A stretch of DNA of 39,939 nt. It comes from a virus. Below are positions 2,645 through 39,939 of the stretch, one piece after another (position 1 is the first letter of the stretch; the number at the start of each line of letters is the position of its first letter). The notes beneath the pieces are model-generated. The model was not told where the DNA came from, did no database searches, and worked only from the letters and a program-made list of their open reading frames with translations. The stretch is taken from IMG/VR virus record IMGVR_UViG_3300009090_000002, positions 1 through 39,939 of that record; one strand, given 5' to 3'. The position numbers and the translations under genes are program-made.

Positions 2645-2958
2645 GACGCCACCGTCGCGGGCCGCGCGACACTGTCCAAGGCGGCCACCACGGCGCGGAC
2701 CCCGCCGCGCTCCAGCGCTGTGAAGAACGCCTGCAGCGCCTCCCGCAGTCCAACCGCCTCTTCGACGCTGCGGCAGTCCACCGTCCAACTCACCCCCGCC
2801 CAGTAGCGGTATTGCCCGAGGCCCCGGCGGAAGACGCTCGGCTGGAGGCGGACGCGAATCGGTTCGCCCTCGCGACGCTCCAACGCCGCCAGTTCCACCG
2901 GGCCATCGATGCGGTGGGGGTCGCCGCCGAGGTTGAAAGTCATAGTCTGCCCGCGCAT
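2641..2958 (-). CDS. Hypothetical protein next to the exonuclease (105 aa)
   Basis: ATG 2958 overlaps the TGA of the nuclease gene (TGATG); an alternative ATG is at 2943. The protein has a beta-rich first half (TFNLGGDPHRI, EPIRVRLQPSVFRRG) with a QYRYWAGVSWTVDC strand, and a C-terminal helical region (LREALQAFFTALERGG). No family is recognised. Tight coupling to the PD-(D/E)XK nuclease and proximity to the SSB-like gene suggest a recombination or DNA-metabolism role, which is inference from position. Confidence 0.6.
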   Translation of the reverse strand: MRGQTMTFNLGGDPHRIDGPVELAALERREGEPIRVRLQPSVFRRGLGQYRYWAGVSWTVDCRSVEEAVGLREALQAFFTALERGGVRAVVAALDSVARPATVAS

Positions 2959-3752
2959 CACGCCCGCCCCGCGCGTCGCGCCTGATACGCGGCCTCGTGG
3001 CCCTGCTGCCACGTCCACAGCTGCTTGGCGGCCAGGAACACGGGAAACAGTTCGGCCACGGGCGGCACCGGCACGACCTGAAACTGCGGGTCGAGCTCGG
3101 ACTTCGGGACCCGCAGGATCAGCGCCTGCACCGGCTCGGCATAGCCCATCTCGGTTAGCGCCTGACTGTACGCCGCGCATTGAAGATGCGACTCGCCATA
3201 GACCGATTTCCCGCTCTTGATATCCACCAACGTCAACACGCCGTTCACGCGCGCGAGTAAGTCCAGCGTCCCGGCGTAGGCGTGGGTGGCACTGTGAACA
3301 GTCCGCTCGATCAGGACGGGCTTGAGCCGCACCTCGCTCGCCCACTGCTCGAAGGCGCGCAGCGCCACATAGGCTGCCCCACGCGCCACGGGCTTCGGGC
3401 CCGCGTACGCGCCGAGCGCGGTCCGCATCGTCCATTCAATCAACTTGTGGATCTCAGCGCCTAAATCGCCAGCCGTTGCCAGCGCCTTCGCGTGCGCGCG
3501 CTCGGTGCCAAGCCGCGTCTGCAAGCGCGTGAGATACGCGGCGCGCGTCAGCGTCGCGGGTGTGGCGAGGTGCTCGGCATAGAGATCAGCGGCAGTGCTC
3601 GAGACGAGCGTGCGCTCCAAGCCAGAGGCCCACGGAAGCAAAGCGGGTTTGGCGATCGCGCTCAAAATACTGGTGACTGAGGGGTAGCGGACGCCGCCGA
3701 TGTCGTAGTACCGGCCGGTCGTCGTGTCGCGTGCTAGAGTCGGCATGGTCAT
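2958..3752 (-). CDS. PD-(D/E)XK exonuclease, RecB/Cas4-like
   Basis: Putative DNA exonuclease. ATG 3752 was chosen because AAGGA lies about 10 nt upstream; the GTG at 3761 is too close to the SD. In the 264-residue product the PD-(D/E)XK core is visible: His102 in GAEIHKLIEW, Glu149 in IERTVHS, Asp164 in GTLDLL, the Asp177-Ile-Lys179 motif in VDIKSGK, and Gln191/Tyr195 in HLQCAAYSQAL. This order (H...GxxD...DxK...QxxxY) is typical of RecB-family nucleases. With the SSB-like gene upstream it suggests phage recombination or DNA end processing. No annealing protein of the Erf or RecT type was recognised nearby. Confidence 0.85.
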   Translation of the reverse strand: MTMPTLARDTTTGRYYDIGGVRYPSVTSILSAIAKPALLPWASGLERTLVSSTAADLYAEHLATPATLTRAAYLTRLQTRLGTERAHAKALATAGDLGAEIHKLIEWTMRTALGAYAGPKPVARGAAYVALRAFEQWASEVRLKPVLIERTVHSATHAYAGTLDLLARVNGVLTLVDIKSGKSVYGESHLQCAAYSQALTEMGYAEPVQALILRVPKSELDPQFQVVPVPPVAELFPVFLAAKQLWTWQQGHEAAYQARRAGRA

Positions 3753-3788
3753 CTGGCTCACTTCCTTGACTGCGGGTGAGGTGGATGC

Positions 3789-28975: not shown

Positions 28976-29247
28976 GCTTTCGCGCTCAGCGTAGCCGCGC
29001 CGCAGACGCAGGTCCGGCAGTGCGGGCACGGAAACACATGCAGCGCGCCCGCGCAGGTCGTCGGCGGCGAGGGGGCGGCGCTGATGATCTGGTACGTCGG
29101 CGGCGGCAGCGACAGCGCCGGCAAGTAATCGTAGGGCCACCAGCAGAGCGCGGTGTTGACGCTCGCGCCCGGCACGTAGGCGGCGCCGCTCGCCCAACTC
29201 GCCGTCCACGTCGTGCTGTCGTCGGCTGATCCACCCGTATAGACCAT
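28972..29247 (-). CDS. Small protein with C-terminal Cys cluster (91 aa)
   Basis: ATG 29247 overlaps the portal TGA (TGATG) with SD AGGAG at 5 nt; GTG 29250 is an alternative. A Ser/Thr/Trp-rich N-terminus (DDSTTWTASWASGAAYVPG) is followed by CWWPYDYLPALSLPPP and a Cys cluster, FPCPHCRTCVCGAATL, with two CxxC motifs. Possibly a zinc site. Unknown function; it lies between portal and DUF5662-like genes. Confidence 0.6.
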   Translation of the reverse strand: MVYTGGSADDSTTWTASWASGAAYVPGASVNTALCWWPYDYLPALSLPPPTYQIISAAPSPPTTCAGALHVFPCPHCRTCVCGAATLSAKA

Positions 29248-33398: not shown

Positions 33399-34096
33399 TT
33401 TTTCACCCGCGCCCTGGCGGCGACCAAGCGCGCCACCCGCGCATTGGCCTCATGCATCGTCACATCGACCTTCTCCACGAGCAGCGCGAAGTGCTTCGCC
33501 AGCAGCTCCAGCGCGTGCACCTTCGGCCAGAACTTCATCTTGTGAATCGTGTCGGTGTGCCCATCCCCCGCCGCCACGTTCTTAATGACCACCTCGAGCC
33601 CCGCCACCGACGCCGCCTGCTCCGCGGTCAACTGATGCGGATGCTTCAGGCTCCCGTCCGCGTGGAAGTAGTCGCGCGCACTGGCAAACGCCACGCGCCG
33701 CAGTTCTTCGAGCACCCGCGCGGCGGTGAGCTCGGCGGTCGCCATCTGCCGCGCTTTGCCGTCGCGAATCGCCGCCTGGATCTTAGGAATGACTAGGAGG
33801 TGCGCGGCTTCGACGTCGGGGCTTTTCGAGGTGTAGCCGGCGCGCCGGTACGCCCCGGCGCCGTTCAAGTCAATCAAGTACTCGCTGACGAACCGCGCGT
33901 GCGCGGCGCTCAGCTCGCCGGCGGCCTCGGCGGCGGCGTCGGCGCCGGCCGTCAAGAGCGGCTCGAGTTGCGCGAGCGACGCGACCATGCCGGCCGCGTC
34001 TTGCTTGGCGCGGGCGCGGGTGAAGGCGCTGAAGGCGGCCGCGGCCTCGGCCCAGCGCGGGGCGCGCGGCGGCGTGGGGCGCGGCTTACGAGGCAC
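33395..34096 (-). CDS. terS: Terminase small subunit, Terminase_2-like (233 aa)
   Basis: ATG 34096 lies 11 bases inside the end of the methyltransferase gene. After an Ala-rich N-terminal extension of about 60 residues, the central region shows the Terminase_2 pattern: HARFVSEYLIDLNGAGAYRR, AGYTSKSPDVEAAHLLVIPK and IQAAIRDGKARQ. This is the DNA-recognition HTH domain. A C-terminal part with ELLAKHFALLVEKVDV probably contacts the large subunit. The gene is followed by terL with a GTGA overlap. Confidence 0.87.
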   Translation of the reverse strand: MPRKPRPTPPRAPRWAEAAAAFSAFTRARAKQDAAGMVASLAQLEPLLTAGADAAAEAAGELSAAHARFVSEYLIDLNGAGAYRRAGYTSKSPDVEAAHLLVIPKIQAAIRDGKARQMATAELTAARVLEELRRVAFASARDYFHADGSLKHPHQLTAEQAASVAGLEVVIKNVAAGDGHTDTIHKMKFWPKVHALELLAKHFALLVEKVDVTMHEANARVARLVAARARVKK

Positions 34097-35372
34097 GCGC
34101 CCGCTTCTTCTCGGGGATCGGCTGCGGTGTCTGGCCGGTGAAGGCGGCCCAGCGATCCAGAATCACCTGACAGTAGTCGGGCGAGATTTCCATCCCGAGA
34201 CAGCGGCGCTTCGTCTGCTCACACGCGATCAGCGTCGAGCCGGAGCCGAGAAACGGATCACAGATCACATCGGATGGACGCGATGAGTTCGTGATGGCGC
34301 GTTCCACGAGCGCCACCGGCTTCATCGTCGGATGGTCGGGACTTCGCCTCGGGCGCGCGCATTCCCAGACCGTGTCTTGCGTCCGGTCGTCGACGAAGTG
34401 GTGTGCTGCGCCATCGGTCCAGCCGTACAGAATCGTCTCGTGTCGCCAGTGATAATCTTGGCGACCCATCACGAACGCATCCTTCACCCACGCGATCGTT
34501 TGTCGAAGGACGAGGCCCGCGTCGGAGAGTGCGAGGCGGAACCGGAGTTCCATGTCCCCAGAGGGAGAGCAGACGTAAAAGACGCCGCCTGGTTTCAATC
34601 CAGCCGTGGTCGTTCGCAGCGCCGTCGTCACGAACGCCTGCGTCGCTTCAGGCGTCATCGCATCATTGGCGACTTCCAGTCCGTCACGCCGCCGATGTCG
34701 CACCGCTGCTTCCTCGACCGACAGCTTTGTTTGATACGCCACCCCGTACGGCGGGTCGGTGAACACGAGCGCCGCCTTCTCGCCGCCCATCAGCCGCGCG
34801 ACGTCCTCGGCCTGCGTGCAATCGCCACACATCAGCCTGTGCGCGCCAAGCTGGTAGATGTCCCCGCGCTGGATGCGCGTCGCACGCGGCGCCGGGACAT
34901 CATCGGGATCAGTCTTCCCCGCGACGACCGCCTCTGGCTGCGCCAGCGCCGCCGCCCACTCCTCCTCGGTCCAGCCCTCGCGCAGCGCCGGCACGCGCGC
35001 GGCATACGCCGCCAGCAGTTGCGCGTCCCACGTCGACAGCTCCGCGCTTCTGTTGTCGCTGACGATGACGTCGTCGCGCTGCGCGGCGGTCAGGTTCCGC
35101 CGCCGCACGAACACCGGCCGCGTGCCGTCGCTCTCGACGATGATGGCCTCGCGCTGCCCCGCCGCTTTCGCCGCCGCGTGGAAGCCGTTGCCAGCCAAGA
35201 TCGTGCCGCGGTCATCGACAACACCTGACCGCGCCGAGCCGACGCGCGCGATCACGTCCTGGAGAAACTTCTGGTCCCGCGCACCGTGCTGGCGCGGATT
35301 CTTCGCCAGCGGTTTCAGCGACGCGAGCGGCACGACCTCGACGCGCACGGGCGCGGCTTTTTTGCTGCTCAT
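34086..35372 (-). CDS. ParB-like domain fused to DNA (adenine-type) methyltransferase (428 aa)
   Basis: ATG 35372 overlaps the upstream stop (ATGA). Residues 10-110 are a ParB/Srx-like domain: VPLASLKPLAKNPRQHGARD, GTILAGNGFHAAAKAAG, LTAAQRDDVIVSDNRSAEL. The second half is a beta-class methyltransferase with motif IV DPPYG (206-210), GGVFYVCSP, HPTMKPVALVERAI and motif I-like DPFLGSGST (372-380). This DPPY-before-FxGxG order fits N6-adenine (or N4-cytosine) methylases. It may protect phage DNA from restriction or mark packaging sites; no cognate restriction enzyme is seen. Directly upstream of terS. Confidence 0.88.
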   Translation of the reverse strand: MSSKKAAPVRVEVVPLASLKPLAKNPRQHGARDQKFLQDVIARVGSARSGVVDDRGTILAGNGFHAAAKAAGQREAIIVESDGTRPVFVRRRNLTAAQRDDVIVSDNRSAELSTWDAQLLAAYAARVPALREGWTEEEWAAALAQPEAVVAGKTDPDDVPAPRATRIQRGDIYQLGAHRLMCGDCTQAEDVARLMGGEKAALVFTDPPYGVAYQTKLSVEEAAVRHRRRDGLEVANDAMTPEATQAFVTTALRTTTAGLKPGGVFYVCSPSGDMELRFRLALSDAGLVLRQTIAWVKDAFVMGRQDYHWRHETILYGWTDGAAHHFVDDRTQDTVWECARPRRSPDHPTMKPVALVERAITNSSRPSDVICDPFLGSGSTLIACEQTKRRCLGMEISPDYCQVILDRWAAFTGQTPQPIPEKKRARAS

Positions 35373-35707
35373 GTCGCCAGCCGCCGCTGCACCAATCGCA
35401 GCCGCCACAGCGTCCTGAGCGTCACCGCCTCGCGGCTGGCTGAGAGCTGCAACTTCTGCTGCCCGAGCGCGCGCGCGATCATCACTTTGGAAAAGCCCTC
35501 GTCGACCAAGTCGGCCACGACCGCGAGCGCGGGCGCGGCCGGGATGTGCGCGCCGAGCGGGGGCCGGTGCGCGCGGAGCGCGGCGCGGTACTGCTGGTGG
35601 TAGATCGTGTTCGCGGCGACGCACGCCGCGCAGCGGCAGCCGGCCTGATAACTGCGCCGAGTCCCCGGCCGTTCGAGGTCAGCGCAGATAGAGCACCACG
35701 GCGGTGA
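35369..35707 (-). CDS. Zinc-finger plus HTH protein with no normal start codon (up to 112 codons)
   Basis: This frame ends in ATGA with the methyltransferase ATG. The open stretch encodes WCSICADLERPGTRRSYQAG, then CRCAACVAANTIYHQQYRAA and, later, LVDEGFSKVMIARALGQ, an HTH-like element. GT.R.Y..GCRC..C followed by an IARxLG helix is a pattern known from small phage/actinobacterial DNA-binding proteins. No ATG, GTG or TTG precedes the Cys motifs; the first is GTG 35518. An ATC start, a +1 shift from the membrane-protein gene (at CGC-TGA-C, 35679-35681), or a sequencing indel could explain it. Coordinates show the whole open frame. Confidence 0.55.
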   Translation of the reverse strand, partial: SPPWCSICADLERPGTRRSYQAGCRCAACVAANTIYHQQYRAALRAHRPPLGAHIPAAPALAVVADLVDEGFSKVMIARALGQQKLQLSASREAVTLRTLWRLRLVQRRLAT

Positions 35708-37114: not shown

Positions 37115-37357
37115 TTACGTGCGGCGCCGATCCAGTTCGTCCGCTTTCTCGATCAGGAGCGCCGCGAACTGCCGCGCCTCGCCAGACGGCAGACCCAGCC
37201 ACCCGATCGGCTTCCCGAACTGGACGCGCACGATCGCATTCGCATAATCCGCCGTCAGCGCCATCTGGAGTTCGCCTTCGTCGTCGGCGTCCGCGTGGCC
37301 GCGTGGAAACCGGCTGGTCGCGCCGAGTTTGGTGATCTTGAAGTCTTTGATCTTCAT
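37115..37357 (-). CDS. Hypothetical protein, 80 aa
   Basis: ATG 37357 overlaps the upstream stop (ATGA). The product begins MKIKDFKITKLGATSRFPRG, has an acidic segment (ADADDEGELQM), a strand-rich centre (NAIVRVQFGKPIGWLGLPSG) and a helix (EARQFAALLIEKADELDRR). No family is recognised. Co-translated with the HTH_36-type protein; a partner or regulator role is possible. Confidence 0.65.
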   Translation of the reverse strand: MKIKDFKITKLGATSRFPRGHADADDEGELQMALTADYANAIVRVQFGKPIGWLGLPSGEARQFAALLIEKADELDRRRT

Positions 37358-38073
37358 CGCAGCGCCTCCGCGCGGGCCCGTCGCCCGTCCGTAATCGCCC
37401 GGTCAATGCAGGCGTGGATGGTCGCACATCGCGGCGTGTGCGGACACTGCACGCCCGCCGAGACGCCCTCCGCGCGACGGGGCAGCCAGACGGCCCCCAA
37501 CAGCGGCAGGCGACCGGCCGCGGGGCGCGGGGCGGCTCGCGTTCGAACAGCCAGCCGACGTCCTGGCGGCGGCAGCGGGGTTTCGAACGGGAGCCGCGGT
37601 TCGGGCCAGTCCCAGGGCAGACAAGGCGCGCGCAGCGCGCGCTCTTCTTCTGGTTCAATCTGGATCTGGTTCACTGTCACGCCCGTGTGACTACCCGTGG
37701 TCACGCCGACGTAACTACCTCCCTCGGCGTGGGTAGTCACGCTGGTATGACTACCTGGGTCGCTGGCTGGCGGCTCGAACCGCAGCGTATAGCGATTCGA
37801 GGTCCAATCACCCGCCGCGTCCCGACGACGCTCGACGACCAGGGCGCCCGCCTCGTGCAACGATCGAATCGCCCGGTCGACCGCCGGACGGGAACACCGG
37901 AGGTCGTTTGCGAGCCGTGTCCGCGAGGGGTAACACGTCCCGTCCCGATGATCCGCGTACTCGGCCGCGAGCAGGCCGAAGAGGCGATAGCCGCGATCCG
38001 ACACGGCGGGATGCTGGGCTACCCAGAGCGGGATGCGCGCGAACGGCGTGCCCAGGCGGAGCGCGAGACTCAT
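37354..38073 (-). CDS. HTH_36-type DNA-binding protein, replication-initiator-like (239 aa)
   Basis: The N-terminal ~100 residues match the HTH_36/replication-protein pattern: FARIPLWVAQHPAVSDRGYR, LFGLLAAEYADHRDGTCYPS, RTRLANDLRCSRPAVDRAIR, SLHEAGALVVERRRD. Then comes the low-complexity segment GSHTSVTTHAEGGSYVGVTT typical of these proteins, and a basic Pro/Arg-rich C-terminus with three Cys. Such proteins are often the phage or plasmid replication initiators. ATG 38073 overlaps the HTH-HNH stop. Related in its HTH part to the upstream gene, so the pair probably arose by duplication. Confidence 0.8.
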   Translation of the reverse strand: MSLALRLGTPFARIPLWVAQHPAVSDRGYRLFGLLAAEYADHRDGTCYPSRTRLANDLRCSRPAVDRAIRSLHEAGALVVERRRDAAGDWTSNRYTLRFEPPASDPGSHTSVTTHAEGGSYVGVTTGSHTGVTVNQIQIEPEEERALRAPCLPWDWPEPRLPFETPLPPPGRRLAVRTRAAPRPAAGRLPLLGAVWLPRRAEGVSAGVQCPHTPRCATIHACIDRAITDGRRARAEALR

Positions 38074-38759
38074 CGCTCCTCCTCTCGCGCCAACTTGCCT
38101 TCGCGATGAAAGAGCGTGTGACAGCCGTGACAGAGGACGATGAGATCAGCGGGCCGTTCCGCGCCGAGACGTCGGTACGTCCGGTGATGGACATTAAGGG
38201 CCTCTGCCCCGTTGCACACCTGACACCGAAAGTGCGCCCGTTCCAGCTGGCGCAATCGCGTGCCGCACCAGTGATCGCTTTGGAGATAGTCGGCGTACGA
38301 CACCCTCGGAGGAATCTGCGCGTCGGGGTCGATCGGCGGCTTTAGCCGCACCCGATAGCGGCTCACGGTCCGATGGCCGTTCGGGGTGTGCCGCCGCGTG
38401 ATCTGGACCGCGCCGATCCGTCGCAAGATCCTCAGCGCGCGATCCACCGTATCAACCGACAGGGCTAATTTCTGCGCGAGGGCAGCCCGCGCCACATGCG
38501 CCTCGCCCGACCGATACTCCGCATACCGGCCCGCCAATTCCCCGTAGACGCGCACCGCGGTGCCCGTCACATCCGGGTGTTCAATCAGCCAGAGCGGCAC
38601 CCGCGCGAACCGCGCGTCTGATATCGCTGCGCTCGGCGGCGGGGCGTGGGGCGCAGCAGCGGCAGGGGCGCCACGAGTAGGGGCTTGATTTTGCTGTTGA
38701 GTTTGGTAAGCTGTCTGTGCCGCGTGGGATGGCTCCGTGCGCGGCGATCCGCAGGACAT
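38070..38759 (-). CDS. HTH-HNH fusion protein (229 aa)
   Basis: ATG 38759 with SD AGGAGG about 9 nt upstream; GTG 38765 is too close. After a Gln/Ala-rich N-terminus, residues 48-140 are an HTH_36-like domain (FARVPLWLIEHPDVTGTAVR, LAQKLALSVDTVDRALRILR, RIGAVQITRR). Residues 163-222 are an HNH domain: CQVCNGAEALNVHHRTYRRL and LIVLCHGCHTLFHREGK, with Cys179/182 and Cys210/213 as zinc ligands and His191/192 as the catalytic pair. It could nick or cut at a site bound by the HTH, for example an origin or a host target. Promoter and leader hairpin lie upstream. Confidence 0.85.
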   Translation of the reverse strand: MSCGSPRTEPSHAAQTAYQTQQQNQAPTRGAPAAAAPHAPPPSAAISDARFARVPLWLIEHPDVTGTAVRVYGELAGRYAEYRSGEAHVARAALAQKLALSVDTVDRALRILRRIGAVQITRRHTPNGHRTVSRYRVRLKPPIDPDAQIPPRVSYADYLQSDHWCGTRLRQLERAHFRCQVCNGAEALNVHHRTYRRLGAERPADLIVLCHGCHTLFHREGKLAREEER

Positions 38760-38778
38760 CGTCACAGCCCTCCTGACC

Positions 38779-38827
38779 GGCGCGCGTGCAGAGCGTTGCT
38801 TTCCAGCCAGTGCTCTGCGTGCGCGCC
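38779..38827 (-). promoter_or_regulatory. Leader hairpin (16-bp imperfect stem) before the HTH-HNH gene
   Basis: Bases 38779-38794 pair with 38812-38827 at 14 of 16 positions around a 17-nt loop. On the minus strand the stem ends only a few bases before the SD (AGGAGG), so folding could modulate ribosome access or act as an attenuator between 38877 and 38759. Confidence 0.5.
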
Positions 38828-38851
38828 GAACGGGTCGTAACCTTACCTCAC

Positions 38852-38880
38852 CTCATACGGCTTTCGAATCCGATTGTCAC
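38852..38880 (-). promoter_or_regulatory. Promoter candidate GTGACA-17-TATGAG
   Basis: On minus, GTGACA (38875-38880) and TATGAG (38852-38857) are separated by 17 nt. It begins within the stop codon of the upstream gene and would drive the HTH-HNH gene through the leader hairpin. Confidence 0.45.
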
Positions 38881-39634: not shown

Positions 39635-39694
39635 CAGGGCGCCGGCCGGGTGTTCGTGTTTGTTTCGGGGTTGGTTAACATAATCTTTCTTATC

Positions 39695-39707
39695 AGACCT
39701 TGGGTCT
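39695..39707. promoter_or_regulatory. Palindrome AGACC-TTG-GGTCT in the AT-rich control region 39635-39760
   Basis: A perfect 5-bp dyad with a 3-bp spacer lies in the least GC-rich part of the genome, just upstream of the gene starting at 39634. Near it, on minus, TATGTT could be a -10, but no good -35 was found. The remaining sequence of this 126-bp gap is non-coding by eye. Candidate operator. Confidence 0.45.
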
Positions 39708-39760
39708 ACCGCTAGGGGTGGTGTCGCGTCCCGACCACAAGCGACCGCGCGGAATCGTGG

Positions 39761-39939
39761 TCAGCGCGCCACACCGGACGGATAGACCGCCGCACTGATG
39801 GTTCGCCGGCTGCACGCGCGCTTGACACTCGCGACGCGCTCGCGCGGCGACTGCCCCGCGCCAATCCCCACCGCCGCGAGCACGGTGCGAATCCGCGCCA
39901 GGCGCGTCGTCGGCCCCTCGGTCGTGCCCGCCGACGCGC
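39761..39939 (-). CDS. Hypothetical protein, C-terminal part (continues from position 111 via the junction)
   Basis: This reading frame enters from the right edge and ends at TGA 39761-39763. If the 23-bp terminal overlap is collapsed, it joins in frame with the gene that starts at 111. The sequence includes TTRLARIRTVLAAVGIGAG, QSPRERVASVKRACSRRTIS and AAVYPSGVAR. Basic and helical; family unknown. It marks the 3' end of the leftward early operon. Confidence 0.55.
   Translation of the reverse strand, partial: ASAGTTEGPTTRLARIRTVLAAVGIGAGQSPRERVASVKRACSRRTISAAVYPSGVAR
39911..39933. repeat. Terminal direct repeat, right copy (23 bp)
   Basis: Identical to 1-23. See the left copy for interpretation. 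Confidence 0.8.

Follow-up and report, generated by a model that had tools for sequence, protein, structure and literature searches.

A predicted replication initiator with in-gene iterons beside a winged helix-HNH fusion, a putative origin-directed nuclease, in a P22-like podovirus

The gene pair, its leader and its genomic setting

The window analysed here is a whole virus record (IMG/VR IMGVR_UViG_3300009090_000002), 39,939 bases long with a GC content of 69%. An exact 23-bp direct repeat lies at the record ends (positions 1-23 and 39911-39933, with 6 more bases after the second copy), so the contig probably represents a near-complete genome that is nearly closed or circularly permuted. Terminase and portal, encoded on the minus strand, are of P22-like podovirus types, and the record is a P22-like podovirus. 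Its early genes also occupy the minus strand and run through the record ends into a region with two neighboring genes, here called P1 and P2; terS and terL follow a few kb downstream of P2. The features of this region are as follows.

38852-38880, minus strand: weak sigma-70-like sequence GTGACA-17-TATGAG upstream of P2, read by eye
38779-38827, no strand assigned: 16-bp imperfect inverted repeat (loop of 17 nt) in the P2 leader, immediately ahead of the Shine-Dalgarno sequence
38070-38765, minus strand: P2, a winged-helix and HNH fusion of 231 aa counted from the GTG at 38765 (open reading frame, profile matches, AlphaFold model)
38307-38621, minus strand: P2 winged-helix domain, residues 49-153, like the N-termini of replication initiators (identity to P1, phrog_270, model)
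38082-38306, minus strand: P2 HNH nuclease domain, residues 154-228, with zinc cysteines and catalytic residues intact
37354-38073, minus strand: P1, predicted replication initiator of 239 aa (HTH_36, 2.3e-8; phrog_270, 4.2e-15; Shine-Dalgarno sequence AGGAGG)
37768-38049, minus strand: P1 winged-helix domain, residues 9-102 (alignments A1 and A4)
37736-37755, minus strand: iteron 1, GGTAGTCATACCAGCGTGAC (repeat search and three-copy scan)
37700-37719, minus strand: iteron 2, GGTAGTTACGTCGGCGTGAC (repeat search and three-copy scan)
37676-37695, minus strand: iteron 3, GGTAGTCACACGGGCGTGAC (repeat search and three-copy scan)
37640-37760, no strand assigned: proposed replication origin, comprising the iterons and an AT-richer flank within the P1 gene (GC content, array scan)

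The start of P1 overlaps the stop of P2 by four bases (ATGA), and each gene is preceded by an AGGAGG Shine-Dalgarno sequence; for P2, the ATG at 38759, which lies 9 nt after that sequence, is a likelier start than the GTG at 38765. The first-pass annotation of this DNA had described two adjacent proteins with a common HTH domain, and the two open reading frames bear this out, with winged helices that are 42% identical over about 98 aa (E 4.1e-21) and 54% identical at the nucleotide level. The start of the recognition helix reads SRPAVDRA in P1 versus SVDTVDRA in P2. Both proteins carry an extra residue (LAAEYA in P1, LAGRYA in P2) that is absent from the rest of alignment A1, although one viral homolog (L090) apparently shares it; judged from the alignment, this is a mild hint of common descent. 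The same annotation had taken the pair to be duplicated. In trees of 16 to 25 winged helices, run with and without long branches, the P1 and P2 domains are nearest each other by path length and their grouping is not rejected by the AU test (p-AU 0.26-0.31), but the clade appears in only 2-4% of bootstraps. A tandem duplication of the winged helices is thus possible on these sequence comparisons.

The inverted repeat in the P2 leader, with arms at 38779-38794 and 38812-38827, had been noticed previously as a 16-bp imperfect hairpin before the Shine-Dalgarno sequence, and it withstands comparison with shuffled sequence: the RNA z-score is -4.2 on the minus strand of the gene and -5.7 on the plus strand, where two mismatches turn into G-U pairs, and no shuffle folds as well. 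It has no Rfam match. By analogy with the control of pSK41 rep, a counter-transcribed RNA over the P2 leader is conceivable. A promoter had been placed upstream as well; GTGACA-17-TATGAG is a weak match found by hand, but a promoter scan did not report it, and its designation as the P2 promoter is only a suggestion.

Several observations elsewhere in the genome concern the setting of the pair. A minus-strand gene just upstream of terS (34086-35624) combines a ParB-like N-terminal domain and a DNA methyltransferase in one protein (phrog_8071/620 plus phrog_498, N6_N4_Mtase), and another minus-strand gene (2958-3761) encodes a PD-(D/E)XK exonuclease (phrog_298), a likely recombination nuclease among the early genes. 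An AT-rich intergenic stretch with short inverted repeats (39650-39760, 54% GC) precedes a gene of 150 aa and is probably an early promoter/operator region. The first-pass annotation had put forward 39635-39760 as a possible nuclease target; this segment folds no better than shuffles, and nothing favors it over the iterons in P1. GC skew had been suggested as a check for a nearby origin; over the whole record, the cumulative skew has its minimum at 3488 and its maximum at 29157, and it is uninformative near the proposed origin because the genes run mostly in one direction.

The P1 gene and its iterons

The two proteins had also been read as an HTH_36 pair, and this holds by profile score for one of them. 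P1 matches Pfam HTH_36 (PF13730) with 34.2 bits, above the gathering cut-off of 25 bits, and also matches the replication initiation family phrog_270. P2 reaches 16.3 bits, below the same cut-off, and because this score is sub-threshold its kinship to HTH_36 is based on its similarity to P1 and on the alignments.

Directly behind the winged helix, the coding strand of P1 carries GGTAGTYAYRCNNGCGTGAC in three copies (37676-37755), a feature that was not part of the first-pass annotation. Iteron 1, together with the TACC that follows, makes an interrupted palindrome whose 8-bp arms match perfectly (GGTAGTCA...TGACTACC), and the surrounding 37640-37760 has a GC content of 57.9%, within the lowest 1.1% of the genome. 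When the whole 39.9-kb genome was scanned for three-copy 20-mers with weighting for composition, the P1 array ranked first, with a score of 95.7 compared with 89.7 for the next array and maxima of 69-74 in shuffled genomes. With a simple pairwise repeat statistic, the significance for P1 was only mild (10 of 300 synonymous shuffles did equally well), because many of the GC-rich genes in this genome are repetitive. Searching all viral contigs for the iteron pattern gave two single matches, both judged to be chance: one falls within a structural-type gene, and the other touches the edge of an unrelated open reading frame.

Related initiator genes have a similar layout. In genes of Arthrobacter phages Bumble and Laroye, Caudovirus D_HF5_3, Parageobacillus phage JGon-2020a, and a Tardiphaga plasmid, the best repeats lie at most about 60 nt from where the winged helix ends and are mostly 22-24 bp apart; a comparable array is present in the initiator gene of Microbacterium phage Gingerbug. 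In Arthrobacter phage Laroye, a separate HNH gene (L014, 3816-4142) is found two genes downstream of the iteron-bearing initiator gene. Among plasmids, the Rep boxes of pSK41 are central within rep, and the N-terminus of the pPR9 initiator is of the HTH_36 type (pfam13730) and resembles a phage replication protein (PMC5703833). P1 shares with pPR9, pSK41, and the "RepA-like initiators" of Arthrobacter phages an N-terminal wHTH followed immediately by central, in-gene iterons, and its organization can be likened to that of lambda O. The FxxFWxxYPRK-type C-terminal domain that several phage relatives have, among them the initiators of Arthrobacter phages and D_HF5_3, is missing from P1 (alignment A5). 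Its end (37354-37450, minus strand) carries a Cys/His motif (CPHTPRCATIHAC) in the place of that domain, and this different tail may bind a partner or zinc. We consider it very probable that P1 is an initiator whose own gene contains the origin.

The P2 fusion and its relatives

P2 differs from initiators with in-gene origins in that an HNH domain accounts for everything after its wHTH. The N-terminal part matches phrog_270 (2e-6), whereas RepA_N (PF06970) gave no Pfam match at E<=1 and is approached in fold only. In an AlphaFold model (mean pLDDT 75.9), both domains are present. The winged helix (pLDDT 84.8) has helices at residues 68-81, 93-99, and 104-116 and wing strands at 120-141. Compared by VIA-align with the N-domains of plasmid initiators, it scores Z 10.3 against 4pt7, 10.2 against 4pql, and 9.1 against 5kbj, over 97-98 residues; since other winged helices come close to these scores, the matches support the fold and do not establish membership.

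The claim that P2 contains a complete HNH domain is upheld by both alignment and model. In a 21-sequence alignment with 20 viral HNH relatives, P2 keeps 12 of 12 invariant and 3 of 3 near-invariant columns (Y157, Y160, W166, C181, C184, H193, H194, Y197, L200, G201, E203, D207, C212, H216, and H220). The catalytic His, Asp/Asn, and His and the two CxxC zinc motifs are kept, and the model shows a beta-beta-alpha HNH with strands at 190-194 and 208-212 and a helix at 213-230. The score for Pfam HNH (PF01844) is 17.4 bits, below the gathering cut-off of 21.4 bits, but PHROG HNH families match clearly at 1e-6 to 1e-10; PADLOC gave weak HNH matches only. No T5orf172 match was found in Pfam or PHROGs. 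The HNH of IscB is matched at 1.8e-8 (33.9 bits, for the HNH part only; the NCBIfam cut-off for whole IscB is 175 bits), and Cas5-HNH chains in the PDB are related as well. By sequence, the P2 domain belongs to the same subfamily as the YxxYLxSxxW-type phage HNH nucleases and the HNH domains of IscB and type I-E Cas5-HNH, but those stand alone or work in RNA-guided complexes, whereas that of P2 is joined to an initiator winged helix. Occurrence of the same type in IscB and Cas5-HNH marks this HNH as a portable module.

The HNH occupies the place that linker, iterons, and C-terminal part take in an initiator, and no iteron array in the P2 gene stands out from shuffles. The HNH segment is AT-rich for this genome (62% GC, 3rd percentile), with a GC3 of 0.70 versus 0.81 in the winged-helix part. 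Because of the missing iterons, the HNH in their stead, the composition of that segment, and the stand-alone phage relatives of the HNH, P2 looks, as far as its sequence can tell, like a chimera in which the origin-binding domain of an initiator is joined to a nuclease.

Close HNH relatives of P2 are mostly short stand-alone phage proteins, and none of 35 viral HNH ORFs in the subfamily is fused to an initiator-type winged helix. In ten sampled loci, their large neighbors include thymidylate synthase, endolysin, primase, and tRNA nucleotidyltransferase, with no terminase. Among the matching records (50 phage and 36 plasmid), none covers at least 80% of P2. A second wHTH-HNH fusion was found neither in 398 Pseudomonadota and 385 alphaproteobacterial genomes nor among IMG/VR matches, by searches that used short patterns and did not include a metagenome scan, so that uniqueness of P2 does not follow. 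The best relatives of its winged helix are 41-42% identical, and searches of viral contigs, phage and plasmid records, and about 780 genomes recovered no initiator close to it; a ten-member family alignment was too diverse for the viral scan, and narrower scans gave few or no relatives. Neither close relatives of this phage region nor a relative with an empty P2 site were found. Megaplasmids of Azospirillum, Lichenicola, and Roseomonas encode a related winged-helix protein, unannotated in the latter two; close by are partition genes and a divergent gene for a "plasmid replication protein". No iteron array was detected inside the plasmid genes that were tested.

Candidate roles of P2

The closest known parallel is Odn of phage ICP1, in which a RepA_N initiator-type domain is combined with a T5orf172 nuclease and which binds and cuts origins of the satellite PLE, cleavage requiring three semi-palindromic iterons (PMC8263062). 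Odn is a HEG-derived nuclease joined to the DNA-binding domain of an initiator (PMC8263062, PMC10448857), such initiator-nuclease chimeras arose more than once, and Odn-like proteins are known in coliphages Inny, Muut, and Mt1B1_P17 (PMC10448857). Like Odn, P2 is a single phage protein with an N-terminal initiator winged helix and a C-terminal nuclease. Unlike Odn, it has an HNH instead of T5orf172, its winged helix is HTH_36-type with no RepA_N detected by Pfam, and it adjoins the initiator gene of the phage itself. Further, Odn closely matches the initiator of its target, whereas no close satellite initiator is known for P2. Given its HNH, P2 would work like Odn-type nucleases and not be a member of that group. 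Since it has the design of Odn made from other parts, the best reading of P2 is an origin-directed nuclease.

In the mechanism that we propose, P1 would be a theta-type initiator whose origin, formed by the three semi-palindromic iterons and the AT-richer flank, lies just after the part encoding its DNA-binding domain. The winged helix of P2 would bring the HNH to the iteron DNA of a replicon, which it would nick, or cut as a dimer on the semi-palindromic site. The target would most likely be the origin of a competitor (a satellite, a plasmid, or a related phage) with iterons unlike those of the phage, whose own origin would be spared; the difference between P1 and P2 at the recognition helix would allow such sparing, though as an argument it is weak. 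Binding of iterons by P1 or P2, cleavage, the identity of the target, and the sparing of the own origin are all steps that we infer. In favor of origin-directed cleavage we count the P1 profile, the iterons, the intact HNH, the chimera-like composition, and the Odn precedent. Against it, no replicon was found with an initiator close to the P2 winged helix, the position of P2 in the P1 operon with overlapping genes makes a role at the own origin possible, and with one fusion only, conservation and selection cannot be judged. On balance, we give roughly even odds to the combination of a P1 initiator with an in-gene origin and a P2 nuclease aimed most likely at a competitor's origin. A stronger version, in which the operon is a self/non-self origin-exclusion module whose HNH cutter evolved independently of Odn and destroys related origins while sparing its own, is a tentative proposal that we hold less probable.

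The main rival is that P2 is a free-standing homing endonuclease, with the initiator-type winged helix as its DNA-binding domain, that cuts the initiator or origin region of related phages without P2, after which repair copies P2 in. The scattered placement of its HNH relatives beside unrelated phage genes is HEG-like, and P2 adjoins an essential replication gene, a usual place for a HEG (PMC10448857). However, no empty-site relative was found that would show insertion, and the ATGA overlap with P1 and a Shine-Dalgarno sequence of its own resemble an integrated operon gene, so we regard homing as rather unlikely. The earlier idea of a homing-type element with a captured replication HTH nevertheless comes close to the reading that we prefer, since the nearest characterized protein, Odn, is itself HEG-derived.

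It is improbable, and more so than homing, that P2 is an autoregulator or copy-control protein acting on its leader or on the iterons, with the HNH serving packaging or the breakdown of host DNA. The strong inverted repeat in the leader and the location of this wHTH-HNH gene, with terS and terL a few kb downstream, would suit such a role, as would HK97, where HNH proteins adjacent to terminases are mentioned as participating in packaging (PMC10448857). The HNH neighbors of the P2 subfamily, however, were not terminases in the ten loci sampled. To our knowledge, P22-like terminases and portals have no requirement for an HNH partner.

Least probable, if only slightly behind the preceding alternative, is that P2, working at the origin of the phage itself, helps or times replication as a nickase or a processing factor: the shared operon, the overlapping genes, the related winged helices, and an HNH placed where an initiator would have its origin-encoded linker are in keeping with it, but related phages whose initiators are of this type, with iterons in the gene, manage without such a fusion, P1 and P2 differ at the start of the recognition helix, and theta-type iteron initiators (lambda O, RepA_N replicons) are not known to need a nick. 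Of the nickase-plus-initiator pair envisaged in the first-pass annotation, the initiator is thus retained for P1, on the strength of phrog_270 and the three in-gene iterons, and the own-origin nickase is unsupported.

P1 and P2 are best described as an initiator with an in-gene origin beside an initiator-domain nuclease, a variant of known origin-directed nucleases with a putative function. If P2 cuts iteron origins, weapons that combine an initiator domain with a nuclease would have arisen independently of one another from at least two nuclease folds, T5orf172 and HNH, and targeting of origins would be a general strategy where phages and other replicons are in conflict. With initiator, iterons, and cutter side by side, the locus offers a compact system for studying how a phage protects its own origin.
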